Shown: one piece after another, positions 7,425 through 25,650 of the stretch
How positions within the stretch are numbered: position 1 is the stretch's first letter
How the letters are laid out: each line of letters begins with the position of its first letter
IMG/VR virus record: IMGVR_UViG_3300049825_000796
Location: 1 to 26,439 of that record
Length of the DNA stretch: 26,439 bases
Source: a virus
Direction: 5' to 3' (one strand)
Program-made: the position numbers and the translations under genes
The notes under the pieces: generated by a model
The model's input: the letters and a program-made list of their open reading frames with translations, nothing else
The model's database searches: none
What the model was told of the DNA's origin: nothing

Positions 7425-7441
7425 GCAAGCCGATTTGTCAA
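7425..7441 (-). promoter_or_regulatory. Late-promoter-like 17-bp repeat, copy C (tailspike/lysis module)
   Basis: Exact copy of TTGACAAATCGGCTTGC read on the coding strand, 64 nt before the tailspike ATG. It has the TTGACA core but no -10 hexamer at 16-18 nt. Downstream of the 17 bp it diverges from copies A and B. The TGA stop of the upstream 909-aa gene lies inside TTGACA. It would provide fresh transcription of tailspike, lysis and distal fibre genes. Confidence 0.65.
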
Positions 7442-10167
7442 CCCGGGACTTGGATCGCCCCGCTGCCGGGGCCGGGTTTCTTGGCCCGGGGGCGTTTGAA
7501 GCCGCGTTCCTTGTCGCGGAACTGGCGGTTGAGCCGTTGCATCTTCTTGCGCTGCTTCTGCGCCGCCTTGTAATCGTCGATGGATTTCAACCCGGCGAAG
7601 GCCGGATCATAGGGATCGCCGCCGTCGCGGCGGATCTTGTTGGCGAGCTGGCCTTCCTTGAAGGTCCGCAGCACGTTGCCGAAGTCCGGCGCCCGTTGCG
7701 GGATCAGCCCGCCGCCGGGTTCGCCGAAGAAATCGTTGCCGCTGTTCGTGCCTTGGGCAATGCGGCGGCCCTTGAAGCTCAGCTCCGCATTGGGATCGAC
7801 CAGGCGCTGGGCTTCGTCGAACAGCAGCCGCTGGGCGGCGTAACGCAGATACCACAGCGATGAGCCCGGCGTGTAGAGCGCCGCATATTTCACCGCGTCG
7901 CGCCCGAACTGCGATTTGCCGCTGCCCACCGCTTCCACCGTGTTGCCCGCCAGGAGGCCGAGGGTATCGGCGCCGAAGCCCACCACCGGCCCGGCGGCGG
8001 CGGCGTAGCGCGAGGCGCCGAAGCGGGAGTTGGCGGCGAACAAAAAATCGCCGAACAAGCCGAGCCCGCCGCCTTGCAGCATCGCCGCCAGCATGAATTT
8101 GGGCGAGTTCATCGGGCGCGGGTCCTTGCCGTTGGCCAGTTCCTTGAGCTGGATGGCGAGCGCCCCCATCACCGTCGTGGCGGTCACCAGATGCGCGGCA
8201 TAGCCAAGCTTGTTCCACGCCCCCTGTTGCGACGCGGCGCGCGCCACATGGGTGTGCATCAAGGTGACCGCGAAATTCTTATACATCAAGGTCGAGCGCA
8301 CCAGCTCGCCCGGAATGCTGCCGGGCCTGGCATCGCCCAGCACCGAGGCCTTGCCGAGCAGCGAGGCCGAGGGCACCGCGAATTCGGTTTCGCTCTGGAT
8401 CATGTCGAGCAGTTTGGTGGCCAGCTCGTCGGCGTGTTTGGGATCGAGATCGGCGCGGCGCATGAGATCGTCGGGGCGCAGGAACCCGCCTTTTTCCGGT
8501 GCGTAAATCGAGGTGGCGCGGATATGGTCCCAGTCCTCCGCCGTGATGTTGTAGTGTTTCAGCGCCCGTTGCAGTTCCTTGGACAATCCGCCATGGCCTT
8601 TGCCGGCGTTGTCGGCGAGCAGGCCCATGAACTCCATGCCGAAGGCCCAGCGCCCCGCCTGGGTCCAGGCCCCGAGGCCGGAGACGCGCAGGATGCCGTC
8701 CGACAGCCGCCGCGAGATTTCGCCCGACAGCTGCTCGCCGCTGTAGCGCATCTGGGTGGCGGCGATCGACGACCATTCCTCGGCGATCAAGCCGAGCCGC
8801 ACCGCCAGCTTGCGGTCTTCATGGCTGGCGGGATTGAGCAGCGCCATCTGCCGCGCCATCACCTTCCAATAGGGCAGGCCATTGTATTTCGCCGTCACCC
8901 GCTGGAAGCCCACGTCGGTGATGGCCGAGATGACGGCGGAGCCCAGTTGCGCCGCCGTCAGGGTTTGCCGCAACGCCACGAAGCCCCGGGCCCAGCGGCT
9001 GTTGACCGGCCGGTTGGCGCTGCCGATGTAGTGGTCATAGAGCGTTGCCAGCCCTTGTGTCTTGCTCTCCGCCCGGTTGAGCGGCGCATTGCCCGGCAGG
9101 GCGGCGGCCTGTTTCAAGGCGCGTTGCGTCAGGAAGGTCACCGTCGCGGACGGATTGGGGCCCATGGCCCGCATCGCGCCAATTTCGCGGGCGCTATCGT
9201 CGATGTGCGCCATCATCGCGTCGAAGGCGTCGCCCTGGCCGAACTTTTGCTGATACGCCAGCCAGCCCTCGGCATCGGCGAAATGCAGAATGCGGCTTTC
9301 CCGGTGACGGCTCGCAATCGGGCTGCCGCGTTGAAAATTCTTCGGCTCGCGCGTATCCCAGCCGCCGCTGCGGATGCCATCGTAAACGTCCCTGAGCAGG
9401 GCGTCGAACTGCCGATCGCCCATCGGCTTGCCGGTGGCGAAATCGAGCATCTTGGCGCGGTCGAGTTTGGGCGCGATCACGTCATGCCATTCTTCGAAGC
9501 TAGCCTTGCGCACCTTCAGCATGTTGTGGTTCTGCGGCAGTATCCAGCTGGAGAGTTTCGGAATGGCCCCGCCCAGCGCGTTGAACTGTTTCCGAAGCTG
9601 CTCCGCCGTCTCTTTCCACGCCGCCGCCATCTCGCGCGCCGCCGCGTTGCCCGTCGTCTCGCCGAAAATTTCCTTGACCACATCGAGCAGCCCCGCCTTG
9701 TCGCGGGCCCGCCCGAAGCTTTTGCGCCGGAAGCGGAACAACACGTCGTTCAGCGTTTGATGCGCCGCCGACTTGACGCGCCGCGCTTCCTGGACAGCGC
9801 CCCGGAAACCCAGTTCGCCCTGGCCGGTGGCGTCCACCACCGATCGCAACAACCCGAATTGATCCGCGAGCTTCAAGCGCTCCTGTGCCGCGTTAAGATT
9901 CTTGGCGATGCGGTCCTGGTCCAGCAGCTGTTGCAGCGCCGCGCGCCGCCTGAGATCGGCGTCGAATTGTGCCTGCTCCAGCGCGTCGATGCCGGCTTGC
10001 CGGGCGCCGCCCAGCGGGCCCTCGGCGTCGAAGCGTTCGCCTTCAATACGCGCGATGTCTTTCAGCAGCTTGCGGGCCCGGGCTTCGTCGAGCAGGCCCG
10101 CCGCCAAGGCGCGTTCGATGCAGGCCTTGCCCTTGCCGTTGCCGGTGGGCGGTTTCACGTCAGGCAT
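7438..10167 (-). CDS. Internal virion / DNA-ejection protein (gp16-like C-terminal part), 909 aa
   Basis: Very long protein in the slot of T7 gp16, after gp14- and gp15-like genes and before the tailspike. The first 170 residues are charged and helical (coiled-coil-like, rich in Ala/Arg/Glu). The middle contains a conserved-looking block around SWILPQNHNMLKV and EEWHDVIAPKLDRAKM. A mostly hydrophobic or amphipathic part (about 400-810) includes LRQTLTAAQLGSAVISAITD, LVTATTVMGALAIQL and Gly-rich stretches such as AAMLQGGGLGLFGDFLF. The C-terminus is strongly basic (KAAQKQRKKMQRLNRQ, KRPRAKKPG). Large size, amphipathic helices and a basic tail fit proteins ejected into the cell envelope ahead of DNA. 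No lytic transglycosylase motif was recognised. The ATG at 10167 overlaps the upstream gene by 13 nt. Confidence 0.75.
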   Translation of the reverse strand: MPDVKPPTGNGKGKACIERALAAGLLDEARARKLLKDIARIEGERFDAEGPLGGARQAGIDALEQAQFDADLRRRAALQQLLDQDRIAKNLNAAQERLKLADQFGLLRSVVDATGQGELGFRGAVQEARRVKSAAHQTLNDVLFRFRRKSFGRARDKAGLLDVVKEIFGETTGNAAAREMAAAWKETAEQLRKQFNALGGAIPKLSSWILPQNHNMLKVRKASFEEWHDVIAPKLDRAKMLDFATGKPMGDRQFDALLRDVYDGIRSGGWDTREPKNFQRGSPIASRHRESRILHFADAEGWLAYQQKFGQGDAFDAMMAHIDDSAREIGAMRAMGPNPSATVTFLTQRALKQAAALPGNAPLNRAESKTQGLATLYDHYIGSANRPVNSRWARGFVALRQTLTAAQLGSAVISAITDVGFQRVTAKYNGLPYWKVMARQMALLNPASHEDRKLAVRLGLIAEEWSSIAATQMRYSGEQLSGEISRRLSDGILRVSGLGAWTQAGRWAFGMEFMGLLADNAGKGHGGLSKELQRALKHYNITAEDWDHIRATSIYAPEKGGFLRPDDLMRRADLDPKHADELATKLLDMIQSETEFAVPSASLLGKASVLGDARPGSIPGELVRSTLMYKNFAVTLMHTHVARAASQQGAWNKLGYAAHLVTATTVMGALAIQLKELANGKDPRPMNSPKFMLAAMLQGGGLGLFGDFLFAANSRFGASRYAAAAGPVVGFGADTLGLLAGNTVEAVGSGKSQFGRDAVKYAALYTPGSSLWYLRYAAQRLLFDEAQRLVDPNAELSFKGRRIAQGTNSGNDFFGEPGGGLIPQRAPDFGNVLRTFKEGQLANKIRRDGGDPYDPAFAGLKSIDDYKAAQKQRKKMQRLNRQFRDKERGFKRPRAKKPGPGSGAIQVPG

Positions 10168-12188
10168 AGTTTGACACTCTCGAGGAAATCGCGGTCACGG
10201 GCGAAATCGGCCATCAGATCGTCGAATGTGGCGAATTCGCCATCGGTCGCCGCCAGCACCCCGGCATCGATCGCCTCGGGGTCCTCGGCCCGCCTGGCCG
10301 CCAGCTCGTCTTCATAGGCCGCCATTTCCTCGGCCCGTGCCGCATGGTCCAAGGGTTCCGGCACCTGCTCCAGATCGGCGGCCATACGGGCCGGATCGGG
10401 CAGGGGATCGGCGTCGCTTAAGGCTGGGCTGTCCGGTGCTGGCGCAGCGCCGCCAGCGTCTTGAGCTGGCTGGCCTTCTGGCGGAGATAGACCGTCTTGG
10501 CCGGATCGTCCTCCGCCTCCGCCGCCCGCTCCAGCGCCGCCGCGTTCCGCGTGAGCTCGGGAACTGTCAGGGAACGGAATGGCGTGGCCGTCGTCATAGG
10601 TGAGGTCCGGAAGTCCTTGCTCGGGGTTGGCATGATAGTCCTCCAGGATCGAACGTTCAAGCGCATCCGCCGCCGCCAGATCGGGCTCGGTCATCCGCAA
10701 TTCGGCGGCGCGGCGCTTGACGTGAGCGGGCAGGGGGTCGGTGACCGCATGGCTCACTTCGTCCAGCGTTTTGTTAATGTGATCGAGATTGGCGGTGTAG
10801 GCCGCCATTTCGTCCGCATGCACCGCGGCGGCATCCTGGTTGAACGGATAGACCCGCTGTCCCCGCTCGTTGCGGTCGATGGCGTCGAGCAGATCGGTTT
10901 CGGTGAGCTTCGAGGGATTGGGCCCGCTCGCGTCATGCAGATAGCCATGGTCGCGTGCCAACTCCAAGGCATCGGATAGGGTGATGCCGCCCTTGCGGGC
11001 CAGCCTGCCATAGAGATGCAGATCGCGCGCCTTGAGCTCGCCGCCCGTATCCTTGATGCCGCCGCGCCGCCGCAGGAATTCGACGATGTCCGGGTTTTCG
11101 TGGGTGACGCGTTTGGGCTTGGCCGAGGCCGCTTCGTCGAGCAGTTGCTGGCGCACCGGCGTGGTCAAGTCGAGGCCGGGTGGCGGGTCCTCGGCGAAAC
11201 GCGGCAACGGTTCGCCGCCGCGCACCGCTTGATCGGCCATGATGGTGCGGCGCACATGCTCGGCCTCGCCGGCGGGGGTTTCGGGCAGCGGGTTGTCCTC
11301 GGCCAATTGCGCCACGCCGTCGAGCGCATCGCGGGTGTCTCTCAGAGGTTTCGGCGCATCGCCCTCCGGGAACGCCCGGTCGAAGGCTTCGACCGCCTGC
11401 CGGGGCGTCACCAGTTTGCCGAGCCCGCGCGCCGCACCCTTGATGACGCCCGCCGTCGCAGCAGCGATCACCGTATCGGCGATCACCTGCGAGGCCTGAT
11501 CGCTGCCCGACAGCGGCTCCAGCCCCAGCTCGGTGCGCCAGCGGTTCTGAAACGGCAGCGCCGCTACCGAAGTGGCTCCGGCCAAGCCGCCCTCGATCGC
11601 CATGGTGGCGGCGATGCCGGTTTCGGGAGCGGCACCCAGCCCCGCCATCAACAAGGATGCGGGATCGGTCATGAAACCGCCCACGCCGCCCACCATCCGG
11701 GCAACACTGGCGCCGAACCCCGGCGAGCGTTGCGCCGTGTCGGCCTCTTGCGCGGCGGCGTCGAGCGTCAGTTCATGAGCGCGTTGCGTCAGTTCCGCGC
11801 CAGTGGCGATGTTTTGGCCGCGCCCTTGCGCCGTCAAGTCGGCCTTGAGGCGCTTCACCGCCTCTTCCTCGTTGGCATCGTTGAGCCGGTCAAGCTGGTA
11901 GAGATCGGGTGGGCCTTGGCTTAGCCCTGGGTCTTGCTCGCGGATCGCCGCATCCATGTAGGGCTTGATGGCGCTGCCGAAATCTTGCCCGGTCGCCTCT
12001 TCGATCTGTTTACGCCGCCGCTTGCGGGCCTCCAGCAACGCATTCCGCTTGGCCGTGATCGGCTGCTGATAGGCGCTGGCGTAATAGGCGGCGGTCAGAT
12101 TGTCGAGCAGCGAACCGTCCGGCCCGTAGCTCACCTCATCGCGCGGCGGCGCGCCCGGCGGCAGCTCTTCGAAGAACGGCCCATCCAT
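10155..12188 (-). CDS. Internal virion protein (gp16 N-terminal-part-like), 677 aa
   Basis: The start is the ATG at 12188 (TGATG overlap with the upstream stop); a GTG one codon earlier is equally possible. The N-terminal 150 residues are charged and helical (KRNALLEARKRRRKQIEEATG). Residues about 160-260 hold several hydrophobic Gly/Ala segments (VARMVGGVGGFMTDPASLLM, VIADTVIAAATAGVIKGA) that could insert into membranes. The C-terminal half is charged and low-complexity, with GGAGAGGGGGG, Pro/Asp-rich stretches and an acidic end (EMAAYEDELAARR, FDDLMADFARDRDF). I see no enzymatic motif. By position it belongs to the ejection core; with the 909-aa protein it may divide the job of the single 1318-aa T7 gp16. 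Lack of a recognised lysozyme-like domain is noted. Confidence 0.65.
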   Translation of the reverse strand: MDGPFFEELPPGAPPRDEVSYGPDGSLLDNLTAAYYASAYQQPITAKRNALLEARKRRRKQIEEATGQDFGSAIKPYMDAAIREQDPGLSQGPPDLYQLDRLNDANEEEAVKRLKADLTAQGRGQNIATGAELTQRAHELTLDAAAQEADTAQRSPGFGASVARMVGGVGGFMTDPASLLMAGLGAAPETGIAATMAIEGGLAGATSVAALPFQNRWRTELGLEPLSGSDQASQVIADTVIAAATAGVIKGAARGLGKLVTPRQAVEAFDRAFPEGDAPKPLRDTRDALDGVAQLAEDNPLPETPAGEAEHVRRTIMADQAVRGGEPLPRFAEDPPPGLDLTTPVRQQLLDEAASAKPKRVTHENPDIVEFLRRRGGIKDTGGELKARDLHLYGRLARKGGITLSDALELARDHGYLHDASGPNPSKLTETDLLDAIDRNERGQRVYPFNQDAAAVHADEMAAYTANLDHINKTLDEVSHAVTDPLPAHVKRRAAELRMTEPDLAAADALERSILEDYHANPEQGLPDLTYDDGHAIPFPDSSRAHAERGGAGAGGGGGGRSGQDGLSPPEGQPAQDAGGAAPAPDSPALSDADPLPDPARMAADLEQVPEPLDHAARAEEMAAYEDELAARRAEDPEAIDAGVLAATDGEFATFDDLMADFARDRDFLESVKLCLT

Positions 12189-14389
12189 CACGGCGTCTCG
12201 ATCGGCAGGATGCGGGTTTGATCCTTGGCCGGTGTCACGTCCGCCACATCCGACGGCGCAATCCGCGATTGGTCTTTCTGCGATGTGGGCGCGACCGGCG
12301 GCGGCTCCGGCACGCGCGATTGATCCTTGGGCGGCTTGACCTTCACCCGCTTCACATAGTGCCCGGCGCCCACATACCGCGCGCCCGGCTGATAGACGGC
12401 GGTTTCGGGGCGCACCGCCGGATCGCCCATGTCGAGTTCGTAGTAACCGCCGGTTTTCGCATCGACCAGATATTGCGCCGGGCCCGCAGCGGGATCGGTC
12501 ATCGACACGCGGTAACGGCCATAGGCCGATTGCACCAGCACCGCTTTTTTGACGTCCTCCGCCGTGGCCGGCATCACCTTGCCGGTCAAGGTCACATGGG
12601 CGGGCGGGTTTTTGCCCACCGCCGCCGCCGCCAGCTCTGCGTCGGTCACCGTGTCCAACGCGCTATCGAATTGGGTGGGCGTCATGTCCATCGGCAGCAT
12701 CACCGGCCGCCCGTTGCGCTTGTGAATGCCGCCGCCCTGTGGCGTGGCCCCCGCCGCTTCGTTCAGCGCCTTGGCATATTCCGCCGCGTCGAGCCCGACG
12801 ATGCCGCGATTGACCGCGCGTTCGGCATAAAGGGCCCGCCCCCCCGCGATCACCGAGGCGCGCGATTGCGACAGCCTGGCATCGAACAGCGATCCGATGG
12901 TCTCGGCTTCGACGACGCCCAATTCGGCATCGGCGGGCAAGGTCACGGCTTTATCGTCCAGCGCCTTTTGGCCCACGAAACCGCGCGCCGCGATATCCTT
13001 GCGTCCGCCGCCCCACGCCGCCAGGGCGGCGAGATGCGCTTCGGCTTGAGCGATGCCGCCCAGGTCGCGGAACATGCGGCTCGCGTCTTCGGCGCCGAAG
13101 CCGGTGATGGTGGATTGCATCAGGGCTTCCTTGCGGTCCGGGGCCGCATCCTTGAACGCCTGCGCCATGGATTGCCGCTCGTTGCCGGTCAGGAACACCG
13201 GCTTTTCCAGCCCGTAGAACTGCGCCACCATGCGCGCCGTCTTGGCCCGGGTGGCAATCGCCTCGGGAGTGGCGGAATTCCAGTCGAGCGGTTGTGCATC
13301 GACCAGGCCTTGATCCTGGGCGAAGCCGATGGGATCGGTGGCCAGGCGTTGCTGCATCTGCTTCACCATGCCGGAGCCGAAGGCCAGCGCCGCGTCGCGT
13401 TCCGGAGAATTTTTATCCGAGGTGCGCAACGCTTCGAGCCTGGCCATGGCCTCGGCCGGCGGCAGGCGCCCCAGGCGCTGCGCGAAACCCAGCCCCACCC
13501 CGGCGGCCGATGCGGCGGCGATGGCATTGGGATCGCCGCTCGCCTCCGCCATGCTTTGCAGCCCGGCCACCTGCTCGGCGCTGGGCAGCGCCTCTTCGTT
13601 CACCTGTTTGACCAGGTCCTCAAGGCCCTTGCGCAATTCGGCGTCGTTGGAGGCCGCGCGCAAGCGCCCGCTGTCGGCGAACTCCGCGTCCAATTGTTCC
13701 TGCGCCGCCGGATCGATATCTGGCGCGGCGCCCTCCTGGAGCAGCTTGCGCGCCGCCCCCGGATCGGCCTCGGCTTGCTTGCGCAGATATTCTTCCTGCG
13801 CCTTGCCCCGGAAGCGCTTCTTCAATTGATCGCCTTCTTCCGGCGTGATCCATCCGGATTTCACATGACGGTCGATATGGCGGGCCGCGACATTGGTGAC
13901 GGCGCGTTCGGCATCGGCGTCGCCGGCATCCGCCGCGTCGCGCGACAGCCCGTCCAGCACCTCGCCCAATTGGCTGCGCGCCGTGGGTTTGGCGCGTTCG
14001 AAGGCCCGGCGCTTGACGCTCCGCGCATAGGCCTGCTGCATCTGCGCCGTGTCGTCGTCGAAGGCCTGCGCCTCGCCGGGGTCGGTCAACTGCGGGCGCA
14101 GGTTTTCGCGCACCTGCTGGGTGCGCGCCACGAAGCGCTCGCCCACCGCGTCGAAATCGGTATCGGGGTCGGTGTCGGCCTCGCCCACGGCCTCGCGCAT
14201 CTGCCGGTGCGCCTCGCCCGCCGCTTGCGCCAGTTTCGAGGTCGAGCGCGCCAGCTCGATGACGTTGCCGAGGCCATGCGCCAGATCCGACAGCCCGCCG
14301 CCGATCGCTTCCGCCACCCCGCTCATGCGCGGCAGGTTGGGAACCTCGGGGATGCGGAGCGACGGTCCGATGGTGGTGATTTCCGGCAT
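12188..14389 (-). CDS. Internal virion protein (gp15-like), 733 aa
   Basis: Large soluble, mostly helical protein, close in length to T7 gp15 (747 aa) and in the same gene position. It starts at the ATG at 14389, 3 nt after the stop of the gp14-like gene. The N-terminal 450 residues are Ala/Glu/Asp/Arg-rich helices (VIELARSTSKLAQAAGEAHR, ARKLLQEGAAPDID). The region about 450-620 is mixed, and about 620-690 looks beta-rich (VHT-like strands, YGRYRVSMTD, GGYYELDMGD). The last 60 residues are a Pro/Lys-rich tail with three short repeats KDQSRV, KDQSRI and KDQTRI. I infer an ejection-core component that leaves the capsid during infection. No catalytic motif is visible. Confidence 0.7.
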   Translation of the reverse strand: MPEITTIGPSLRIPEVPNLPRMSGVAEAIGGGLSDLAHGLGNVIELARSTSKLAQAAGEAHRQMREAVGEADTDPDTDFDAVGERFVARTQQVRENLRPQLTDPGEAQAFDDDTAQMQQAYARSVKRRAFERAKPTARSQLGEVLDGLSRDAADAGDADAERAVTNVAARHIDRHVKSGWITPEEGDQLKKRFRGKAQEEYLRKQAEADPGAARKLLQEGAAPDIDPAAQEQLDAEFADSGRLRAASNDAELRKGLEDLVKQVNEEALPSAEQVAGLQSMAEASGDPNAIAAASAAGVGLGFAQRLGRLPPAEAMARLEALRTSDKNSPERDAALAFGSGMVKQMQQRLATDPIGFAQDQGLVDAQPLDWNSATPEAIATRAKTARMVAQFYGLEKPVFLTGNERQSMAQAFKDAAPDRKEALMQSTITGFGAEDASRMFRDLGGIAQAEAHLAALAAWGGGRKDIAARGFVGQKALDDKAVTLPADAELGVVEAETIGSLFDARLSQSRASVIAGGRALYAERAVNRGIVGLDAAEYAKALNEAAGATPQGGGIHKRNGRPVMLPMDMTPTQFDSALDTVTDAELAAAAVGKNPPAHVTLTGKVMPATAEDVKKAVLVQSAYGRYRVSMTDPAAGPAQYLVDAKTGGYYELDMGDPAVRPETAVYQPGARYVGAGHYVKRVKVKPPKDQSRVPEPPPVAPTSQKDQSRIAPSDVADVTPAKDQTRILPIETP
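12195..12335 (-). repeat. Three KDQ(S/T)R(V/I) repeats at a protein C-terminus
   Basis: Within the 3' end of the gp15-like gene, three copies of a short motif (K-D-Q-S/T-R-V/I) are separated by Pro-rich spacers of roughly 17-21 residues. They form a low-complexity tail that could be a docking segment. Confidence 0.7.
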
Positions 14390-14392
14390 GGC

Positions 14393-14824
14393 CTAGCCCA
14401 GCGCCGGAATGGGGCGCACCGCGCCCAGCAATTGACCGCCGGCGGAGAGTGCCGAACCGAACAGGCCGGCAGCGCCTTGCATCTTGTAGAGCCGCGCCTC
14501 GCTGTCCTTGGCTTCGCTGCGCATCTGGTAACCGGCCCGCGCGTACAGCGCATCGCGCTCGCCTTCGAGCCTGGAATAAAACGCCAGGTCGAGCGAACTA
14601 CCGGCCCCCAGGGCCCGCCCCGACGCGGCGATATCGACGGCCTGCTGGCCCAACGTGAGATCGTTGCGCCGCCGGATCGCGCCTTCTTCGAGCGCGCCCA
14701 TGGTGCGGATGCGCGTTGCCTCCTGGCGGGCCAGCGCCGCGTTGTACTTCGCCTGCTGCATGCCCATGACGCCCTGCGCCACCGACGCGGCGGCCCCCAG
14801 CACGCCAGCGATCGCCATGCACAT
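14393..14824 (-). CDS. Internal virion protein B (gp14-like), 143 aa
   Basis: The ATG at 14824 directly abuts the TAG of the tail-nozzle gene, with a strong AAGGAGG site 8 nt upstream inside that gene's last codons. The protein begins MCMAIAGVLGAAASVAQGVMG, the Ala/Gly-rich hydrophobic N-terminus with an early Cys typical of gp14-like proteins in podoviruses. A charged helix follows (QQAKYNAALARQEATRIRTM) and then a Gly/Ala-rich end. Length is somewhat below T7 gp14 (196 aa). It sits between the nozzle and the gp15-like protein, as in T7-type virions. It is expected to be ejected into the outer membrane early in infection (family knowledge). Confidence 0.75.
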   Translation of the reverse strand: MCMAIAGVLGAAASVAQGVMGMQQAKYNAALARQEATRIRTMGALEEGAIRRRNDLTLGQQAVDIAASGRALGAGSSLDLAFYSRLEGERDALYARAGYQMRSEAKDSEARLYKMQGAAGLFGSALSAGGQLLGAVRPIPALG

Positions 14825-17764: not shown

Positions 17765-18250
17765 TCAGTCGGTGACGAAGGTGGTTTCGACGAAGGCCTG
17801 CGCCGCCCCGGTGGAAGCGGTGGCGAAGGTCCACACGATGTCGAGTTCGCCGCCCGGATCGGCGGTAAGCCCCGCCAATTGCCAGGCGCGTTTGTTGAGG
17901 TTGGCCAAGGCCACGCCAAACATCGTCTGGCGCACGCCCGCCGCCGCCACGGCCTGGGCGTTCCACAGCACGGTTTTGGCGGCGGTAGCCTCGCCCGCCG
18001 TCATCTTGGCGTGAAAAAAGCCGAGGCTCGCGGTGCAGCCCGCGCCGAACGCGGCGTAATTGACGTCGCCGATATTGACCATGCGGGCCGAGGACGGCAC
18101 GCGGGCCACGAACACGCGGTCGTTGGCGGCGGCGGCCGCCGCCAGGGTGAGGAGCGAGGCGGTGCAGCGCAGCCGCGCCCCCTTGTGGTCGCCGATGACC
18201 TGCGTCGGCGAGTTGGGATTGGGGTAGTTCGAACCATAAAAATCGGCCAT
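17765..18250 (-). CDS. Probable capsid-associated (decoration/head) protein, 161 aa
   Basis: The ATG at 18250 has GGAGA 7 nt upstream. The protein starts MADFYGSNYPNPNSPTQVIG and reads as beta-rich with Ala/Gly turns: RLRCTASLLTLAAAAAANDR, VFVARVPSSARMVNIGDVN and ELDIVWTFATAST. This 'small-molecule-like' layout (start, D-R-V-F-V-A-R-V-P, a later G-G-E-L-D-I strand) recurs in small proteins encoded right after podoviral capsid genes, which I take as head or decoration proteins; the exact role is not proven. No membrane segment is present. It is separated from both neighbours by intergenic hairpins, suggesting independently tuned expression. Confidence 0.6.
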   Translation of the reverse strand: MADFYGSNYPNPNSPTQVIGDHKGARLRCTASLLTLAAAAAANDRVFVARVPSSARMVNIGDVNYAAFGAGCTASLGFFHAKMTAGEATAAKTVLWNAQAVAAAGVRQTMFGVALANLNKRAWQLAGLTADPGGELDIVWTFATASTGAAQAFVETTFVTD

Positions 18251-18290
18251 GGAATGTCTCCGTTGTGGGGATTGACGATGTACGGATGGA

Positions 18291-18315
18291 CGCCGGGGCT
18301 TGTGCGGCCCCGGCG
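18291..18315 (-). terminator. Perfect 9-bp GC hairpin after the capsid gene
   Basis: CGCCGGGGC (18291-18299) and its exact complement (18307-18315) flank a 7-nt loop in the 80-nt gap between the capsid stop and the next start. No U-tract follows on the coding strand. It may be a weak terminator, a 3'-end stabiliser or a processing site. Confidence 0.45.
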
Positions 18316-18330
18316 CTTACGCTGGGAACC

Positions 18331-19272
18331 TCAGCTCGGATCGACGCAATCGATCTTGAGCACTTTCTCGTCCATGATCCGTGCGGCACCCGCCATCTTC
18401 TTGACGTAGACGCGGATGTTGAAACGCTTGCCCGGATCGGGGCCGATGGCCACGGTGTCTTCCTGCCAGTGGGTGCAGTTGATGCCAGACGGCAGCCACA
18501 TCGGGCACCAGCGGTTGCCGTTGGCGGGATCGCGCGGCAGCTCTTCGCTCTCGACGAAATCGACGCCGAGGATCAAAGGCAGATTGCCGCGCTCCAGCGG
18601 CACGCCGTTGATGTAGTCGCTGCTGGTGAGCTTCACGTCCTCGAACAGCTCGTCCCATTGCTGGGCGTTGATGCCGAGTTTGATCGTCTCTTTCCGCACA
18701 TTGCCGCGGATCGCTTTCAGCTGCTTGAACTTCTTGATCCCGGCCTTGATCTTCGAGAGGTTCATGCCCACCGGCGTGGCGCCGCCGGCCGAGCCCACGG
18801 TGGAGGCGATTTTGTAGGTGGCGTCGACGAAGGCGATGGGCCCATTGGTGACGGCGGTGGCCACGTCCTTGCCTTCGAAACGCGGGCCGAAAAACGCCGG
18901 GATGATGACCTTGGTGTCGAGGTCCTCGCCCAGCGCCATGCGGAACGCCATGACCAGGGGCGAGGTGGGGTCGATCACCTGCTTCAGCACGTCGGCCTTG
19001 TCGATCAAATCGCCGCCTTCGATTTCGAGCGGAAACACCCAGGGGCGGTAACGGTCGATTTCGTCCAGCGGCGTGTCGCCATAGCGGTCGGTCTTGATGC
19101 GGGTTTTGGCCTTGCCGAAAATCTGCACCGGGTTGACCGCTTCGCCGGTGGCGGTGTCGGTCGTCACGTGGTCGCGGAACAGGCTTTCGGATTGCTGCGG
19201 TTTGAAGTCGATGTTCGCCTTGAACATCGGAACGTAGTGCTTGGGGATTTCGATCTCGGCGATGCCGGGCAT
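18331..19272 (-). CDS. Major capsid protein, 313 aa
   Basis: Start at the ATG at 19272 with AAGGA 8 nt upstream. The protein (MPGIAEIEIPKHYVPMFKAN...) has the N-terminal helix followed by an arm-like segment with SESLFRDHVTTDTATGEAV. A beta/alpha core contains LDEIDRYRPWVFPLEIEGGD, SPLVMAFRMALGEDLDTKV, a PAFFGPRFEGKDVA segment and a closing beta part (GKRFNIRVYVKKMAGAARI). This matches the layout of HK97-fold coat proteins of the podoviral 'phage capsid protein' type. It follows the scaffold gene and has its own promoter-like repeat and a long structured leader, as expected for the most abundant virion protein. Identification rests on pattern and gene order. Confidence 0.8.
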   Translation of the reverse strand: MPGIAEIEIPKHYVPMFKANIDFKPQQSESLFRDHVTTDTATGEAVNPVQIFGKAKTRIKTDRYGDTPLDEIDRYRPWVFPLEIEGGDLIDKADVLKQVIDPTSPLVMAFRMALGEDLDTKVIIPAFFGPRFEGKDVATAVTNGPIAFVDATYKIASTVGSAGGATPVGMNLSKIKAGIKKFKQLKAIRGNVRKETIKLGINAQQWDELFEDVKLTSSDYINGVPLERGNLPLILGVDFVESEELPRDPANGNRWCPMWLPSGINCTHWQEDTVAIGPDPGKRFNIRVYVKKMAGAARIMDEKVLKIDCVDPS

Positions 19273-19516
19273 GGGACAATTCCTTCACAGAGGCCTAGGA
19301 AACGAGGGGTTCTGTGACGGGGGTGTCCGCAACTGGCGTCTAAGCGCACGGGCCCGATCTAGCCGTTGAAGGGTGGCTGCCCTGGCGGTCTTTGCCGCCG
19401 GTCACCGGGCCTGGCCCCCGCCAGGGTGTCCGGGTGGAAGAGGGGCCCCGCGCCGCTGTGGCGGCGGCGCGGGGATCGGGGGATACCAAACTCAACCGGG
19501 GCCACACGACTCCGGC
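19273..19516 (-). promoter_or_regulatory. Structured 244-nt leader of the capsid gene
   Basis: Gene-free stretch between promoter-like copy B and the capsid ATG. It holds two strong inverted repeats: an 11-bp perfect hairpin with a 7-nt loop (19446-19456 / 19464-19474) and a longer one with 9-bp arms (19380-19388 / 19418-19426) that contains a smaller CCGGT-C-ACCGG palindrome. No U-tract follows either. Possible roles are mRNA stabilisation, blocking of read-through or control of translation. I see no ORF worth calling. Confidence 0.55.
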
Positions 19517-19534
19517 GCAAGCCGATTTGTCAAG
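19509..19534 (-). promoter_or_regulatory. Late-promoter-like repeat, copy B (capsid module)
   Basis: Contains the exact 17-bp core TTGACAAATCGGCTTGC (19533-19517) and matches copy A at 25 of 26 positions including one upstream and eight downstream bases (then GC, C/T, GGAGT). It lies about 245 nt before the capsid ATG. The TGA stop of the preceding 102-aa ORF is embedded in TTGACA. No -10 hexamer at usual sigma70 spacing. Confidence 0.7.
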
Positions 19535-19838
19535 TGCCTCCTATATCGACTACTCCGGTGAGGAAGTGCGCCCGCGCCGTGATGCGAACTCCGCGATTTT
19601 GCGAGTCCTCCGCTTGCGTGATGGTCACTGCATTGGAATTGACAGCCTCCGCAAAGAGTTCGATGGCCAATTTGTTTTTGTTGTCCACTGCGGCGCGGAG
19701 GCGCAGGTCAGATGCTTCGATCACAATCGATTTCTCGAATGTCATGACACCGGCAGCTTTGACGACCAAGTATCCCCTGGCCTCCAAAAACGCCTTTGCA
19801 TTTGCGACGTCAGACAACATTCCAAGTGGGGCGTCCAT
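19530..19838 (-). CDS. Hypothetical protein of atypical composition, 102 aa
   Basis: Not recognised. The ATG at 19838 overlaps the scaffold stop by 1 nt (TGATG); a GTG one codon upstream would give a 4-nt overlap. The protein has a helix (SDVANAKAFLEARGYLVVKA), a short beta hairpin (VMTFEKSIVIEASDLRLRAA), a helix (NKLAIELFAEAVNS) and a final strand (GVRITARAHFLTG). It contains Asn, Lys, Ile and Phe codons rare in its neighbours, and the DNA is clearly less GC-rich. The TGA stop lies inside promoter-like copy B. It may be a recently gained accessory gene placed at the scaffold/capsid boundary. Function unknown. Confidence 0.6.
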   Translation of the reverse strand: MDAPLGMLSDVANAKAFLEARGYLVVKAAGVMTFEKSIVIEASDLRLRAAVDNKNKLAIELFAEAVNSNAVTITQAEDSQNRGVRITARAHFLTGVVDIGGT

Positions 19839-20782
19839 CACGCGCCCCCATAGATCAACCGGTTGAGCTTCTCGCGTTCGGCCAGTTCGCTGGCGTGGCC
19901 GGGGTGGTTTTTGTCGTTGAAGGCCTTGGTCATGTCCGGGTTGGCCTCGCGCCGGGACAGATCGGCGCGGGCTTGATCCGCCGTCGAGGCCAGGGTCTTG
20001 CCGTCGCCGGTGATGGTGGCGGCGCCTTCCATCTTGGCGCCCAGTTGCGCGAAGAGTTTGAGCATGGCGGGCGCGCTCATCTCGCTATTGAGTTGGTCGG
20101 CCAGCGCCGCGTCGATGCCCAATTGCCGCGCCGCATATTGCGCCATTTCGACATGCTTGGGCGCATCGCCGCCCCATTCCTTGGCGAGAGACGCTTGCAA
20201 CTGCTTGCGTTCCTCCATGGTCTTTTGCATCTGAATCTGGGCTTGCCCGGTCATCATCTTGACGCCGAAGTCGAACATATCCTGCGCCATCTCGCGCGGC
20301 AGCGAACGGTCGAAGGCGAACTGCCGGAACGACTTCTCCGCCGTTTCGTCGAAGCTGATGCCTTCCGGCAGCTCCGGCTTGTTCCAGGCATAATCCTCGG
20401 GTTTTTCGAGCCCGCCAAACGCCGCCTTGTTGGCCTTGAAGAATTCGGTGAGCTTGCCGGGCTCCGGCTTGGGCATGAACTTGTCGGCCTGGCCGTGCAG
20501 TTTTTCGCCGTTCATCGCCCAATCGTGCAGGCCTTGCAGGGTGGTGATCTTCTTGGCCGCCATGACCTTGGCGCTGTCGGCCCCGAACATGTTGGGATCG
20601 AAGGCGGTGTCGAGGCCAAGCTGCGGCGTGGCCGAAGCGCGGCCATGCGCCTCGAGCCCGAACTTGACCAGATCGCCCACCGTCTTGACCGCGCCGAACG
20701 CGGCGCGGCCGTCCTCGGGAACGAGGCTGGCGTCGAAGGGGGTATCCGCCGTCAGGGCGGGAGGTGCTGCTGGATCGTTCAT
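19838..20782 (-). CDS. Capsid scaffolding protein, 314 aa
   Basis: Directs procapsid assembly and is absent or reduced in mature heads (family knowledge). The ATG at 20782 overlaps the upstream stop by 4 nt (ATGA). The sequence is acidic, helical and low in Cys. It starts with a disordered Pro/Ala stretch, then EDGRAAFGAVKTVGDLVKF, a KFMPKPEPGKLTEFFKANKA segment, PEDYAWNKPELPEGISFDE (typical of scaffolds of this gene order), long Gln/Met/Lys helices (QAQIQMQKTMEERKQLQASL), and a charged C-terminus with KNHPGHASELAEREKLNRLI. Portal - small gene - scaffold - capsid is the canonical order. No protease motif was seen. Confidence 0.8.
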   Translation of the reverse strand: MNDPAAPPALTADTPFDASLVPEDGRAAFGAVKTVGDLVKFGLEAHGRASATPQLGLDTAFDPNMFGADSAKVMAAKKITTLQGLHDWAMNGEKLHGQADKFMPKPEPGKLTEFFKANKAAFGGLEKPEDYAWNKPELPEGISFDETAEKSFRQFAFDRSLPREMAQDMFDFGVKMMTGQAQIQMQKTMEERKQLQASLAKEWGGDAPKHVEMAQYAARQLGIDAALADQLNSEMSAPAMLKLFAQLGAKMEGAATITGDGKTLASTADQARADLSRREANPDMTKAFNDKNHPGHASELAEREKLNRLIYGGA

Positions 20783-21072
20783 GGTGTTTCGCCTTGTGTT
20801 GTTTGAGTGACGTCATTGACGTGGATCGAGGCCACCGACTGAAGCATGAGGGCCACCTTGCGCTGGCCTTCGCGCAGGCACATCACCTGCGCATCCTCAT
20901 GCCACGTCGTATCGTGCACGAAGCAATAAGCCTCGAGGCCGCGCACGAAATCCTTGTTGCCGAACGCCACCTGCATCGCGGTCAGGATGCGCGCCGCTTC
21001 CGTGCCGAAACACTCGACCAGGAACTGCGCGGTGTCCTCGGCCAGCGGATGGACCGGCGGCGGAATGCTCAT
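20779..21072 (-). CDS. Bbp19-like small protein, 97 aa
   Basis: The ATG at 21072 overlaps the portal stop (ATGA), and its own stop overlaps the scaffold start in the same way. The core reads FLVECFGTEAARILTAMQVA, then GLEAYCFVHDTTWHEDAQVM and CLREGQRKVALMLQSVA. This F-x-T-x-x-G/A-x-x-I-L, then H/D-x-x, then REGxRxVxL arrangement matches the small Bbp19-type domain known from Bordetella phage BPP-1 and many podoviral genomes, usually between portal and scaffold. Its role is not established. The assignment is by motif memory and deserves a profile search. Confidence 0.65.
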   Translation of the reverse strand: MSIPPPVHPLAEDTAQFLVECFGTEAARILTAMQVAFGNKDFVRGLEAYCFVHDTTWHEDAQVMCLREGQRKVALMLQSVASIHVNDVTQTTQGETP

Positions 21073-22700
21073 GCCGCCTTCTTGCCGCCGTCGCGCGGCA
21101 CCGCCTGGATGCCAAGCTTGTTGGCGATGTCGGCGCCCTGCTGGCCCATGGCGAGGGCCTGCTGCATCTGCTCGGCTTGCTGGCGCTGCGCCCGCATCGC
21201 CGCCACGTCGTCGGCGCCGCGCACATTGGTGGCGGGCGCGCCGAAGCCTTCCTGGTAGGAGCGGATCACGTCTTCCTCGTCGATGAAGTCGACCGCCCCC
21301 GGCTTGATCTGCGCGAGCGCGATGGTGCTATCGACCAGGCGGACGGACGCGGCGGCGGTGGCGGACTTCTGCGCATGCGCCATGGGGGAGACGTATTTGA
21401 TCTTGAGATCGCGCCCCGCCAACTCCGGCGGCGGCGGCGGCAACTGGCCCGCCTCCCACAGCATCAAGAAGCGCTGCGACACCGAGGGCGACAGGAACTC
21501 GCGTTGCTGGCGCACCAGCAACGGGCCCAGGCGGCGCATCTTCTCTTCGTCGCGCGACAGGAATTCGACCGCCGCGAGGCCGGTGCGGCTGGCGAGCTGC
21601 AGGAGCGAGGAGAAGAACCCCTCGCGGACCATTTCGTCGCGCGCCTGCATCATCTCGTGCGTCGTCGAAATCCGCCCCGAGGTTTCGAGATACTGCACCA
21701 TGGGCCGCCCGCCCATGCTCATGCCGCCATAGATGGGCTTTCGCGGTTGCGGGCGCGTCAGTTGCAGGGCGTTGCGGTCCGGCATCAACGGCGGCGGATG
21801 GTTGATCATCTCCGCGTTTTCCAGCATCGAGCGGTCCATGGCATTCAAGGTGCGGATATCGGGCAACGCCCGCTGCCCCAGGCCGTAGCCATAGGGCCCG
21901 TTGCCGGCGAGCCGCGGCGTCTGGAAAAAATAACGCCTGCCGCCCCTTTGCAGCTCGTGTTTTTCGTCGAGCATGAAGTAGAGGTCGGAGTAGGGGAACC
22001 CATTCGGTCCGATTTGCCCGTCGGTGTATTCGTCGTTGGCGGTGAGGCAATGCAGCACCATGAACTTCTCGCCGTCCTTGGCGTTTTTCAGGCGCGTCAT
22101 TTTTCCGGCATCGTCGGCGGCCTTCGGCCACTGCCTGAGGATCTGCCGCTTCGACCACCAGAACGGGCGATAGACCGTGTCCACCCGGTAGTAATTGTCG
22201 AGGTCATAATAGAGGTCGAAGGGCGAGTAGCAGATATCGAAAATCTCTTGCCGGTTCGGCATCCACTCGCTGTTGAAGCCGCTGGTGCCCAGCCCCGCCA
22301 TGTCGGCGTAAAGTTCCGGCACCTGCGAATAGAACCCGCACATGGCCGGGCCGTAACTGTTGAGCACAATGCGCGAGACGGCGGCGAGCCACGCCTTGAC
22401 CCGGCCCCAGCGGTTGAGATCGGCGTCGTAGGTTTCGAGCGAGAACCACTCGTTGGCCTCGTTCGACAGGTAGGTGTAGAGATTGCCGACATAGGTATCG
22501 AGCGCGTAGTGCGCGGTCGAGGAGGTGATGTAGGGGTTTTGCTGCGGCGGCATGGTCTCGGGTTTGTAGACCGCGTTCATTTCGAGCCGCAGCGGACGGA
22601 TGTGTTCCGCCACCTCGCGCATCTTCTGCTCCCACGGGGCTTTCGCCGAACGCAATTCGTGGAAGCGTTCGCAGGCGATGTCGGCGGTCAGCGTCGCCAT
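21069..22700 (-). CDS. Portal (head-tail connector) protein, 543 aa
   Basis: Forms the dodecameric DNA channel at one capsid vertex. The ATG at 22700 lies one base after the stop of the small Pro-rich gene (TGAgATG). Length is like T7 gp8 (536 aa). Features of the head-tail connector family: helical N-terminus (ERFHELRSAKAPWEQKMREV), HIRPLRLEM, the SSTAHYALDTYVGNLYTYLS block, NEWFSLETYDADLNRWG, a GTSGFNSEW turn, SPFDLYYDLDNYYRVDTVYR, a PYGYGLGQRALPDIRTLNAM helix region, then MINHPPPLMPDR. The C-terminus is Gln/Met-rich and basic (QRQQAEQMQQAL, DGGKKAA), which may reach into the head. Upstream in-frame residues beyond 22700 are not supported. Confidence 0.9.
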   Translation of the reverse strand: MATLTADIACERFHELRSAKAPWEQKMREVAEHIRPLRLEMNAVYKPETMPPQQNPYITSSTAHYALDTYVGNLYTYLSNEANEWFSLETYDADLNRWGRVKAWLAAVSRIVLNSYGPAMCGFYSQVPELYADMAGLGTSGFNSEWMPNRQEIFDICYSPFDLYYDLDNYYRVDTVYRPFWWSKRQILRQWPKAADDAGKMTRLKNAKDGEKFMVLHCLTANDEYTDGQIGPNGFPYSDLYFMLDEKHELQRGGRRYFFQTPRLAGNGPYGYGLGQRALPDIRTLNAMDRSMLENAEMINHPPPLMPDRNALQLTRPQPRKPIYGGMSMGGRPMVQYLETSGRISTTHEMMQARDEMVREGFFSSLLQLASRTGLAAVEFLSRDEEKMRRLGPLLVRQQREFLSPSVSQRFLMLWEAGQLPPPPPELAGRDLKIKYVSPMAHAQKSATAAASVRLVDSTIALAQIKPGAVDFIDEEDVIRSYQEGFGAPATNVRGADDVAAMRAQRQQAEQMQQALAMGQQGADIANKLGIQAVPRDGGKKAA

Positions 22701-22701
22701 C

Positions 22702-22884
22702 TCATTGCCCCAGCAACAGTTTGCCGCCCAGAGATCCCGCGCGCCCGTCGCCGCCCTGGATGGCGGAGGCGAAGCCGTATTGGGTGCGGCGGCGCGCCTT
22801 CTCGGCTTCGGCCTGCTGAATGCCGGCACTCGGATCGGCGATGGCGAGAGGCTTGGGGAGCGGCGGCGGTTTGAAAAAACACAT
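22702..22884 (-). CDS. Small Pro-rich phage protein upstream of portal, 60 aa
   Basis: The ATG at 22884 has a perfect AGGAGG 6 nt upstream; a start at 22911 lacks this. The product starts MCFFKPPPLPKPLAIADP, continues as a charged helix (GIQQAEAEKARRRTQYGFA) and ends Gly-rich (SAIQGGDGRAGSLGGKLLLG). Short proteins with an 'MCxxxKPPP' N-terminus are found just ahead of portal genes in many podoviruses; their function is unknown to me. The early Cys is not in a lipobox. One base separates its stop from the portal start, indicating coupling. Confidence 0.7.
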   Translation of the reverse strand: MCFFKPPPLPKPLAIADPSAGIQQAEAEKARRRTQYGFASAIQGGDGRAGSLGGKLLLGQ

Positions 22885-22894
22885 GGGCAGCCTC

Positions 22895-23377
22895 CTATTT
22901 GGTCCAGGCATATTGCGCGTAGGGCGCGGGCGCGAAGCCCTGGCACAGGCATTCGAGCTTGGCGCCCAGCCGTTCGATCCAGCGGCAGTTGGCGGTCCAG
23001 CTCGACAGCGCCCGCAGTTCGACGCGGGTTAGCCCCGCCTCGAGGCAGCGCGGAATGAGCCGGTCGCGGATCAGCCGCGTCACGTCGGTGGCGATTTTCG
23101 GCCACTCCGGCGTGGCGATCAGATTGGCCTGGCCGACGCCCGGAGACGTAAGCAGAATTCCAATCAGTGCCACGGGGCGCGGATGGTCGCGGTGCGCCAC
23201 CGCCCACAGCGGCGCGAATTGCTCCGTGGCCTGAACGATTTCGGCGGCGAGGCCGAAGCGGTCCTTGCTGAAACGCGCCGAGAAAATCTCCTCCGCGTCT
23301 TCGCGGCGCATGCGCAGCACCACGTATTCGACATCGTCGGGCGTGGCGGGGCGGTAGGCGAGCGCGCGGTACTGCAT
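22895..23377 (-). CDS. GNAT-fold acetyltransferase-like virion protein (gp13-like candidate), 160 aa
   Basis: The ATG at 23377 overlaps the large-terminase stop by 1 nt (TGATG). It begins MQYRALAYRPATPDDVEYVV and shows an alpha/beta layout typical of GNAT folds: 'RPATPDDVEYVVLRMRRED' start, a PLWAVAHRDHPRPVALIGIL strand pair, then RDRLIPRCLEAGLTRVELRA and NCRWIERLGAKLECLCQGF at the place where GNATs have their C-terminal strand and 'W/Y-ERLG' turn. No clear Q/R-x-x-G-x-G/A acetyl-CoA loop is visible, so catalysis is doubtful. T7 gp13 and its relatives (DUF2833) are GNAT-like and similar in size. Its place between TerL and portal suggests a morphogenesis role (inference). Confidence 0.65.
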   Translation of the reverse strand: MQYRALAYRPATPDDVEYVVLRMRREDAEEIFSARFSKDRFGLAAEIVQATEQFAPLWAVAHRDHPRPVALIGILLTSPGVGQANLIATPEWPKIATDVTRLIRDRLIPRCLEAGLTRVELRALSSWTANCRWIERLGAKLECLCQGFAPAPYAQYAWTK

Positions 23378-24843
23378 CAGCCGAACCCCATCGGGCGCCA
23401 GTTTTCGGCGGCGAGATCGGCGGCGGGCGGCGGCATGTGCAGGGTGCGGCGGCCGTGCAGGATTTCCGGCATGCCGGTCAGATACGACACCGCGAATTCC
23501 GCCGCCTCGCAGGCGTGCGACTCGTCGGTCTTGTCGATGGTGTCGGCGTAGCGTTCGCGCTCGCCCGAGCGCGTCAGCTTCTTGTAGCGGAAATTCTGGT
23601 TGAGGCCGTCATGCAGCATCTCCATCGACGGATCGATCGTGAGCGTGTTCTGCTGCATCGCCGCGTGCAACGGCGCTTCGAGTGCGGCGCGCTTGCTGGT
23701 CAGGCCCGGCACGATCGGCACGCCCAGTTCCGACTGCACGATCAACGCCCACACGTCGTCATCGTCGCGCGAAATGTCGGTGCGGTTGAAGGCGGCGGGA
23801 TCGGCCACGAAGATCGGGTCGAACTCCGGGAACTCTTCCAGCCACTGTTGCTTGAGGGCGCGCCCGAATTCGCGCGGCGGCGTGTTGAACACCGGCAGTT
23901 CCCGCAACCCGCGAAGCCCGCCGGCGATATCGCGCTGCCACCACGACGCCGCCGCGTTCCAGCCTTGGTCGAGGCCGCAGACCAGGCGGCGGCCCTTGAG
24001 CGGTTCGAGCGTCAGGTTGGCGCGGTGAACGAAGGGATTGTATTTTTGATAGACCGGCTTGCCCGAACGGTCATAGCCGAACAAATTGTCGATCATCCGG
24101 CGCTTGGTGTGTTCCGGCGAGCGCTTGGCGATGTCGATGTAGTATTTCCGGCCGCCCGGCAGGTTGTACAGGTTTTCCGCATCGGGATCGAGGCCGCCCG
24201 GCTGGCGGTAGAACGCAAACCCGTCAATCGGCTTGGTGACGAAATTGCGCTCGATGTGATTGCCGAAGTTGGGCGCGTTGCAATCGAGCCAGCCGCCCTT
24301 CCACGATGCACCCGCGAAGCCGATCGCCTTATCGACCGCCGGATAGCGCCCGATGCGCTCGAGCAGTTTCATGTAAAGTTCTTCCGGCTCTTTGTCGGCC
24401 TCCGCGATGTGGAACGAGGTGATCTCAAAGCCGCCGGCGAATTTTTCGATATCGGTTTCGCCCACCGCGGGGAACAGCACGTGCATCTCGCACGTCGTTC
24501 CATCAGGCATACCCCAGACGTGGGTGTCCTCGGCGGGCTCGCCATTGGCGCCGCCGCGCCAGTTGCGGCTTTGGCTGAACCAGTTTTTCCAGGTGCGGAG
24601 CGTGGTGCGCTCCAGATCGCGGTAGGTGGAGCGCACCGAGATGTGGCGGGTCCGCCTCACCCCATCGGGATGCGGGGCTTGGTTCATCGCCACCGGCAGG
24701 AACTTCAACAGCGAGGTCGAGGTCTTGGCGCCGCCGACCGGACCCATGATGCAGCTCAGCATCGACGTGTCCTGAAAGAACGACCGCAACACCCGGTCGC
24801 GCGTCGGAATACCGAAGGCCCTGAGGAGCTGCGGATTGCTCAT
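23377..24843 (-). CDS. Terminase large subunit (ATPase/nuclease), 488 aa
   Basis: Packages DNA into the procapsid. The start chosen is the ATG at 24843 (MSNPQLLRAFGIPTRD), since the frame upstream to 25038 looks like translated non-coding DNA. Walker A is GPVGGAKT at residues 34-41, with an SVRSTYRDLERTTLRTW helix-strand pair after it. A Walker-B-like strand ends in FHIAEADKEPEE, less canonical than hhhhDE. The nuclease half has the RNase-H-like order: LVCGLDQGWNAA (D292), PIFVADPAAFNR (about D348) and TIDKTDESHACEAAEFAVSY near the C-terminus. Length is in the normal range. Its first codon overlaps the stop of a doubtful small ORF (ATGA), and its stop overlaps the GNAT-like gene start. Confidence 0.9.
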   Translation of the reverse strand: MSNPQLLRAFGIPTRDRVLRSFFQDTSMLSCIMGPVGGAKTSTSLLKFLPVAMNQAPHPDGVRRTRHISVRSTYRDLERTTLRTWKNWFSQSRNWRGGANGEPAEDTHVWGMPDGTTCEMHVLFPAVGETDIEKFAGGFEITSFHIAEADKEPEELYMKLLERIGRYPAVDKAIGFAGASWKGGWLDCNAPNFGNHIERNFVTKPIDGFAFYRQPGGLDPDAENLYNLPGGRKYYIDIAKRSPEHTKRRMIDNLFGYDRSGKPVYQKYNPFVHRANLTLEPLKGRRLVCGLDQGWNAAASWWQRDIAGGLRGLRELPVFNTPPREFGRALKQQWLEEFPEFDPIFVADPAAFNRTDISRDDDDVWALIVQSELGVPIVPGLTSKRAALEAPLHAAMQQNTLTIDPSMEMLHDGLNQNFRYKKLTRSGERERYADTIDKTDESHACEAAEFAVSYLTGMPEILHGRRTLHMPPPAADLAAENWRPMGFG

Positions 24844-25112
24844 GCGCCCCGAACCCTCACCCTGGGGTGGCGAGACCGATTTCGATTTCGCCACACAACC
24901 ATGGGAGTGAACCCAAAATCGTGAAGCTGTCTGGAGGACCCGGATAGGGGGCGCGCGCGGCCCCCCCCCCGGGGGGTCTTCGCCGGGCGGGCTTGCGCGG
25001 GGGGTCGCTTTGGTCCTTGATTTCCCATCATGTACCAATTCGAGGATTGTCCAATCATTCCAAGGGGAAAGCCGAAACCGGTAGAGGGGAAGGCGGTAGA
25101 GATTGCCCGCAT
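24840..25112 (-). CDS. Doubtful 90-aa ORF bridging small and large terminase
   Basis: An uninterrupted frame starts in the small-terminase stop (TGATG, ATG at 25112) and ends in the large-terminase start (ATGA). The product starts MRAISTAFPSTGFGFPLGMI and becomes Arg/Pro/Gly-rich (KRPPAQARPAKTPRGGG, WRNRNRSRHPRVRVRGA), with no recognised domain. The coupling at both ends favours a gene. The low-complexity basic second half and the C10G6 tract it crosses favour non-coding DNA that happens to be open. If the homopolymer length is wrong, the frame changes. Confidence 0.3.
   Translation of the reverse strand: MRAISTAFPSTGFGFPLGMIGQSSNWYMMGNQGPKRPPAQARPAKTPRGGGRARPLSGSSRQLHDFGFTPMVVWRNRNRSRHPRVRVRGA
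24961..24976. repeat. C10G6 homopolymer junction
   Basis: Ten C followed by six G (plus strand) lie in the gap between the terminase genes. This is a slippage-prone and sequencing-error-prone tract, and any open frame crossing it is uncertain. Confidence 0.9.
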
Positions 25113-25588
25113 CACGCCACTAAGTCCTTGTTTTCATTGGGCTCGACATCGAAGATCATTCCGTCGGTGGTCTGCGGCCCAGCGACCCGCTGGAACAGGT
25201 CCTTCTCCAGCATCACGGTCAGCGTTTCCTGCTTGGTGACGTCGATCGACAGCGCCGCCTGCTTGGGCGTGGTGGCGTCGACCAGGCGCAGCAGCAGGCG
25301 TTCCTTGATCAGCCCGGCCTTCTCGCGCGTCGGCGCCGCGAAGTCGGCCATGATGCCCTCGAGATCGCCAAACACGTAGCCGGCCAGTTTCATCAGCGGG
25401 TGGATGCCGTAGGTGTGGACCAGCAGCCGGGTGAGATCGCGGTTGAACTTGTTCTGCGCGCCGGGCGGGCGGCCGCCGCGCTTGGTGTCGTCGCCGGGCG
25501 CCGCCAAAATCGCGGTCCCCTGTCTCTCCCCCTCGGGTTTTTCCGGGGGTGCGATCATGTCGAGTTGAGCAGCGCCGCTCGGGTCCAT
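25112..25588 (-). CDS. Terminase small subunit candidate, 158 aa
   Basis: DNA-recognition subunit of the packaging motor (inferred from position just before the large subunit). The ATG at 25588 is the first start after promoter-like copy A (about 45 nt); an internal ATG at 25558 is possible, and neither has a strong ribosome-binding site. The disordered N-terminus includes IAPPEKPEGERQGT. Then comes RGGRPPGAQNKFNRDLTRLL, a 'GRPxGxxNK' DNA-binding-like motif typical of small phage DNA-packaging proteins. A helical stretch follows (LMKLAGYVFGDLEGIMADF, GLIKERLLLRLVDATTPKQA) and an acidic end (DVEPNENKD). No full helix-turn-helix can be drawn with confidence. Confidence 0.7.
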   Translation of the reverse strand: MDPSGAAQLDMIAPPEKPEGERQGTAILAAPGDDTKRGGRPPGAQNKFNRDLTRLLVHTYGIHPLMKLAGYVFGDLEGIMADFAAPTREKAGLIKERLLLRLVDATTPKQAALSIDVTKQETLTVMLEKDLFQRVAGPQTTDGMIFDVEPNENKDLVA

Positions 25589-25624
25589 CTATCCGGCCCG
25601 TTTTTTATTCACCGCGCCTGTTGC

Positions 25625-25650
25625 ACTCCAGCGCAAGCCGATTTGTCAAG
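25625..25650 (-). promoter_or_regulatory. Late-promoter-like repeat, copy A (packaging module)
   Basis: Exact 17-bp core TTGACAAATCGGCTTGC (25649-25633), extended to 26 bp with a single difference from copy B. It is located about 45 nt ahead of the small-terminase ATG, that is, at the head of the whole late gene cluster. No sigma70 -10 hexamer at normal spacing. Confidence 0.7.

Follow-up and report, generated by a model that had tools for sequence, protein, structure and literature searches.

A directional 17-bp repeat at the packaging, head and tailspike junctions of a BPP-1/HTVC010P-type podovirus fragment, a candidate recognition site for a phage transcription factor

A 17-bp repeat, TTGACAAATCGGCTTGC, occurs in three perfect copies in the phage DNA analysed here, each at the start of a late module, and we put the chances at about even that these copies are recognition sites for a phage factor acting with the host RNA polymerase. 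The window, by which we mean the whole stretch of 26,439 nt, is an IMG/VR record whose ends coincide with the ends of the window; it therefore lacks the early genes. The original prediction had read the repeat as a phage-specific late promoter. What stands of this is a cis element that is directional, particular to the phage and placed at its packaging, head and tailspike modules, with like layouts in distant relatives. The placement also fits a late promoter, but no -10 was found; a role in driving transcription, a phage factor as reader and late action are all inferred.

Gene order and homologous proteins show that the phage is a podovirus of the BPP-1/HTVC010P type. The order terS-terL-GNAT-portal-Bbp19-scaffold-capsid-tail-IVP-tailspike is the same in BPP-1, BcepC6B and HTVC010P. 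Best protein identities to relatives are about 28-34%, and searches with portal, capsid, terL and tail protein B found no close relative among viral contigs, genome contigs and GenBank phages. On the minus strand, the small terminase candidate (158 aa, 25112..25588) has no family match and is named from its position before TerL and the BPP-1 gene order. It is followed by the large terminase (23377..24900, start uncertain; tblastn 30% to BcepC6B TerL), a GNAT-like or internal-virion-protein-family gene that adjoins terL as in BPP-1 and ctQRb9 (22895..23377; phrog_308, 2.4e-6), the portal or head-tail adaptor (21069..22700; phrog_332, 1.1e-96; 28% to pelagiphages), a Bbp19-like protein (20779..21072; PF25181, 1.6e-5), a scaffold or protease-type protein (19838..20782; phrog_3742, 2e-19; phrog_458 protease, 8e-11), a 103-aa ORF without a family match between scaffold and capsid (19530-19841) and the major capsid protein (18331..19272; phrog_3437, 1.5e-40; up to 34% in IMG/VR). 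Further along the same strand are a 909-aa internal virion protein that ends in the third copy of the repeat (7438..10167; phrog_684, 1.7e-176) and a 759-aa tailspike candidate, assigned by position and without a family match (5081..7360). Tail tubes, internal virion proteins, a GTA-type holin and an endolysin also gave family matches. A small ORF occupies the same scaffold-capsid slot in HTVC010P and MW202898. At 26297-26439 (minus strand) lies the 3′ end of a gene whose acidic tail, EEEEASEA, is suggestive of a single-strand-binding protein, and two tandem 159-nt units, 87% identical, are found at 1724-2041.

All three copies of the repeat are exact and lie on the minus strand, the coding strand of the structural genes. 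Copy A (25633..25649) is free-standing, entirely inside a 708-nt gap and 44 nt upstream of the terS ATG (25588). Copy B (19517..19533) is 244 nt upstream of the capsid ATG (19272), and copy C (7425..7441) is 64 nt upstream of the tailspike ATG (7360). Each of the two begins on the stop codon of the upstream ORF, the 103-aa ORF for copy B and the 909-aa internal virion protein D for copy C, and in both this stop codon is the TGA within TTGACA. A scan of the window thus bore out the number, coordinates and strand of the copies given in the original prediction, as well as the agreement of copies A and B at 25 of 26 positions. The scan with up to three mismatches that the prediction called for, over the 26,439-nt record, returned the three exact copies and one extra place, a plus-strand site with three mismatches within terL (24046-24062). 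Many intragenic or opposite-strand copies, the outcome named beforehand as telling against the claim, were not seen, this being the one such site. Dinucleotide shuffles gave a mean of 0.08 matches at this threshold, with none of 100 reaching four. The repeat is the sole 17-mer with at least three occurrences in the window, where order-4 Markov simulations gave 0.03 17-mers with three or more copies per run. Non-coding sequence makes up only about 7% of the window right of 2985, yet all three copies touch a gap; three independent placements of this kind have a probability of about 3e-4. A chance origin of the triplicate is unlikely. The repeat is directional and non-palindromic (2/17 positions self-match). 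Across 2.9 million viral contigs the exact 17-mer had only two matches, one in a dUTPase-like gene and one in an HNH gene (antisense to KPICQ codons); the genes are unrelated, and both matches were judged to be chance. The 708-nt gap upstream of terS also holds eight GTGACC/GGTCAC hexamers in four close pairs (25715-25943), one pair being nearly perfectly inverted (GTGACCTGCGCTGGTCAC); this cluster looks like an origin or operator region.

Repeats were also sought at the same junctions in related phages. BPP-1 carries GGGTGCCCGTGCC four times, always on the coding (minus) strand, at 26283, 24121, 20736 and 6174, where the sites precede terS, GNAT, bbp19 (with which the scaffold/capsid block begins) and the tail fibre. 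An unbiased search of upstream gaps against shuffled controls showed related boxes at like junctions in ctQRb9 (GGGTACCCGTATC) and in Caulobacter phage RapA (CGGTGCGCATGAT), both with mismatch scores well below those of shuffles; the boxes of these two phages are on the minus strand, at 34710, 30481 and 11938 in record L020 and at 38709, 22635 and 2257 in record L025. Across BPP-1, ctQRb9 and RapA, TAnnnT, TAnnnA or AAnnnT stands exactly 15 nt downstream in nine of ten boxes, the sole exception being GATACA in RapA. The -10-like hexamers are TAGAGT, TACTGT, TAGCCT and AAAACT in BPP-1, TAGATT, TAAATT and TAATCT in ctQRb9, and TAAATA, TAAAAA and GATACA in RapA, and copies before head genes usually have the ATG 6-7 nt past the -10. 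The only small protein common to the three phages is a helix-turn-helix (HTH) protein with weak Pfam HTH matches (bbp27, RapA gp3 and UOF81074), encoded just upstream of terS, and this bbp27-family protein is a candidate activator of the box promoters.

Further carriers of the bbp27 family were found by tblastn and then tested for boxes. The predicted arrangement of box, 15 nt and TAnnnT was present at the corresponding junctions in DC33, zth2-2, ctEw122 and BL94, the last with a RapA-type box variant, while phages lacking a bbp27-family gene had box matches only without a -10. A scan of the 2.9 million viral contigs for the pattern GGTRCCCGTRTC-N15-TAGATT found 72 contigs. In these, the spacing of exactly 15 nt to TAnnnT held for 32 of 32 further boxes, and an ATG stood exactly 6 nt after the -10 at 71 of 72 seed sites, counts that come from a redundant set in which the seeds form nine spacer clusters and the further boxes five. 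From the boxes in relatives and contigs it appears that, in one lineage of the family, the junctions occupied by the 17-mer in the window carry a directional class of putative late promoters composed of a GGTRCCCGTRYC-like 13-mer, 15 nt and TAnnnT. The ATG is often 6 nt after TAnnnT in this class, a leaderless-like arrangement. The terS of BPP-1 is annotated from 26318; its box and -10, together with a TerS-like N-terminus, suggest that the true ATG may lie near 26255 (minus strand). Limnohabitans phage DC33 (PQ492659) is filed as Inoviridae, yet has the genes of a BPP-1-type podovirus. The class is more broadly supported than the window's repeat. No earlier description of it was found in the open-access literature searched, which is not proof of novelty because the epsilon15 genome paper (PMC2698709) and a paper on Caulobacter Rauchvirus (PMC9391073) were outside its scope.

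In the window, a profile of the GGTRCCCGTRYC-like 13-mer gave only low-scoring, chance-level matches. Among 44 relatives of the capsid protein, none had a three-copy repeat upstream of the capsid gene and one had a two-copy repeat, which leaves the repeat of the window itself unconfirmed by comparison. The two-copy case (L169) is an exact 16-mer, TAATTATCCAGTTTAC, at 2185-2200 and 5733-5748 (plus strand), one copy lying at the stop codon of terL and the other at that of the scaffold gene, ahead of the capsid gene, and is possibly another case of the same junction layout. BcepC6B, Carin1, ZP6, VP5, MW202898 and HTVC010P had no such repeat clearly above shuffles.

A reading of the copies as ordinary host sigma-70 promoters, in which a perfect -35 is paired with a weak -10, draws on the TTGACA in every copy and is the least probable of those we weighed. 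As originally observed, no copy has a -10 at 16-18 nt. Within 0-59 nt downstream of the three copies there is no -10-like hexamer at a common distance, the best summed -10 scores are within the range of shuffled copies, and a sigma-70 scan of the window reported no site at any copy. Conservation among the copies runs 11 nt beyond TTGACA, which a -35 alone leaves unexplained, and plain sigma-70 is therefore disfavoured. The earlier judgement that a site needing a phage factor fits better than plain sigma-70 is supported, in the form of a factor working with host RNA polymerase. By-eye comparison with sigma-54 spacing (GG-N10-GC), with CtrA spacing and with the alphaproteobacterial GCTANAWC -10 found none that fits all copies. 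Could the repeat instead act in the RNA, in antitermination, processing or translational control at module junctions? Two copies begin on a stop codon, an 11-bp G+C-rich hairpin (19446..19474, minus strand) stands between copy B and the capsid start, about 43-71 nt downstream of the copy, and a smaller hairpin follows copy C. RNA folding found no structure common to all copies, however, the folds are no better than those of shuffles (z -0.5 to -1.5) and an Rfam search gave no match, and we regard an RNA-level role as improbable. The hairpin after copy B was rejected as a terminator, having no U tract.

Promoters for a T7-like single-subunit phage RNA polymerase, one of the options originally preferred to sigma-70, are now disfavoured and seem very improbable. 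The element is contiguous and identical with no separate -10, the match of copies A and B extends to 25 of 26 positions and ends in GGAGT, and T7 promoters precede capsid and tail fibre genes. Against this, the gene order and proteins are of the BPP-1/HTVC010P type, the sequence at the expected place of melting is G+C-rich (as it is downstream of the 17-mer in copies B and C), and the extension beyond the 17-mer is missing from copy C. The RNA polymerase family PF00940 is absent from the window, from 18 known relatives and from 14 contigs with the nearest capsid relatives, several of them 36-44 kb long; the T7 positive control was recovered at 1e-109 in both searches of relatives. The RapA group and skadi are likewise stated to be without a phage RNA polymerase (PMC11053796; PMC10504331), and with the literature and the searches in agreement a phage polymerase is unlikely. 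The main rival, still unlikely in our estimate, is that the copies are operators at which a lysogeny repressor silences late promoters in the prophage. In the epsilon15 record (AY150271), 'repressor' sites of 16-17 bp are annotated ahead of terS, portal and tailspike as well as in the immunity region, so that sites of the same length and almost the same placement exist in a related phage type. CAAnnCGnnTTG forms a weak 8/12 dyad, and BPP-1-type phages are often temperate, with cI and integrase in BPP-1 and BcepC6B. However, those epsilon15 sites that are 17 nt long come close to perfect palindromes, with 12-14 of 17 positions self-matching, and differ from site to site. TTGACAAATCGGCTTGC lacks this palindromic form; the window copies are identical, non-palindromic and in one orientation, and neither a repressor nor an integrase is found in the window.

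Under the reading that we prefer, recognition sites for a phage factor working with host RNA polymerase, a phage-encoded transcription factor would bind the directional 17-mer with its -35-like TTGACA and would recruit the host enzyme to poor promoters without a recognisable -10, switching on three late modules: packaging (terS), head (the capsid gene) and adsorption/lysis (tailspike). In its favour are the exact coding-strand triplicate at the terS, capsid and tailspike junctions and not inside genes, the directional rather than palindromic form and the lack of an RNA polymerase in the kin of this phage. The best support comes from the differently spelled directional repeats at like junctions in distant relatives. 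Its weak point is that the window copies are without the fixed-distance -10 of the relatives. In addition, no bbp27 homologue was found in the window by tblastn with three family members, and the early region where the regulator would be expected is outside the record; copy B is also separated from the capsid start by 244 nt that include a strong hairpin.

We tentatively suggest, at somewhat less than even chances, a common logic of late control in BPP-1-type podoviruses, which have no RNA polymerase gene. Each lineage would have its own directional box at the terS, head and tail-fibre junctions, read by a small phage activator; box and reader would be swapped between lineages, and the window would hold a version that evolved separately and has no canonical -10. 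BPP-1 is a model for tropism switching by diversity-generating retroelements. How late genes are timed in BPP-1-type phages without their own RNA polymerase is undescribed in the literature searched, and the recurrence of such sites at matching junctions across several lineages points to a late regulator that can be tested. For one lineage, the geometry of box, 15 nt and -10 with an adjacent HTH gene may also provide a rule for finding promoters in metagenomic phages.

Three known or newly recognised systems can be compared with the repeat. The late (class III) promoters of T7 are likewise contiguous, particular to the phage and placed ahead of capsid and tail-fibre genes, but they need a phage RNA polymerase, which is absent from the kin of the window phage, and they have no sequence likeness to TTGACAAATCGGCTTGC. 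The epsilon15 (Uetakevirus) sites are also about 17 bp long and repeated before terS and tailspike, and before portal too; they differ in being annotated lysogeny operators of the palindromic form ATTACC-N5-GGTAAT, variable and present in the immunity region as well. The bbp27-box class is, like the window repeat, a lineage-specific directional repeat on the coding strand, often directly after an upstream stop codon, and both have same-strand copies at the terS, scaffold/capsid and tail-fibre junctions. The class is set apart by its GGTRCCCGTRYC-like sequence, to which TTGACAAATCGGCTTGC has no resemblance, by TAnnnT at exactly 15 nt, by a head-gene ATG about 6 nt after the -10 and by an HTH gene adjoining terS. 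On sequence, -10 spacing and HTH gene alike, TTGACAAATCGGCTTGC is outside the bbp27-box class and at best works like its box. Phages are already known to carry repeated sites for late control, and TTGACAAATCGGCTTGC, from a single fragment, adds a new variant to these.
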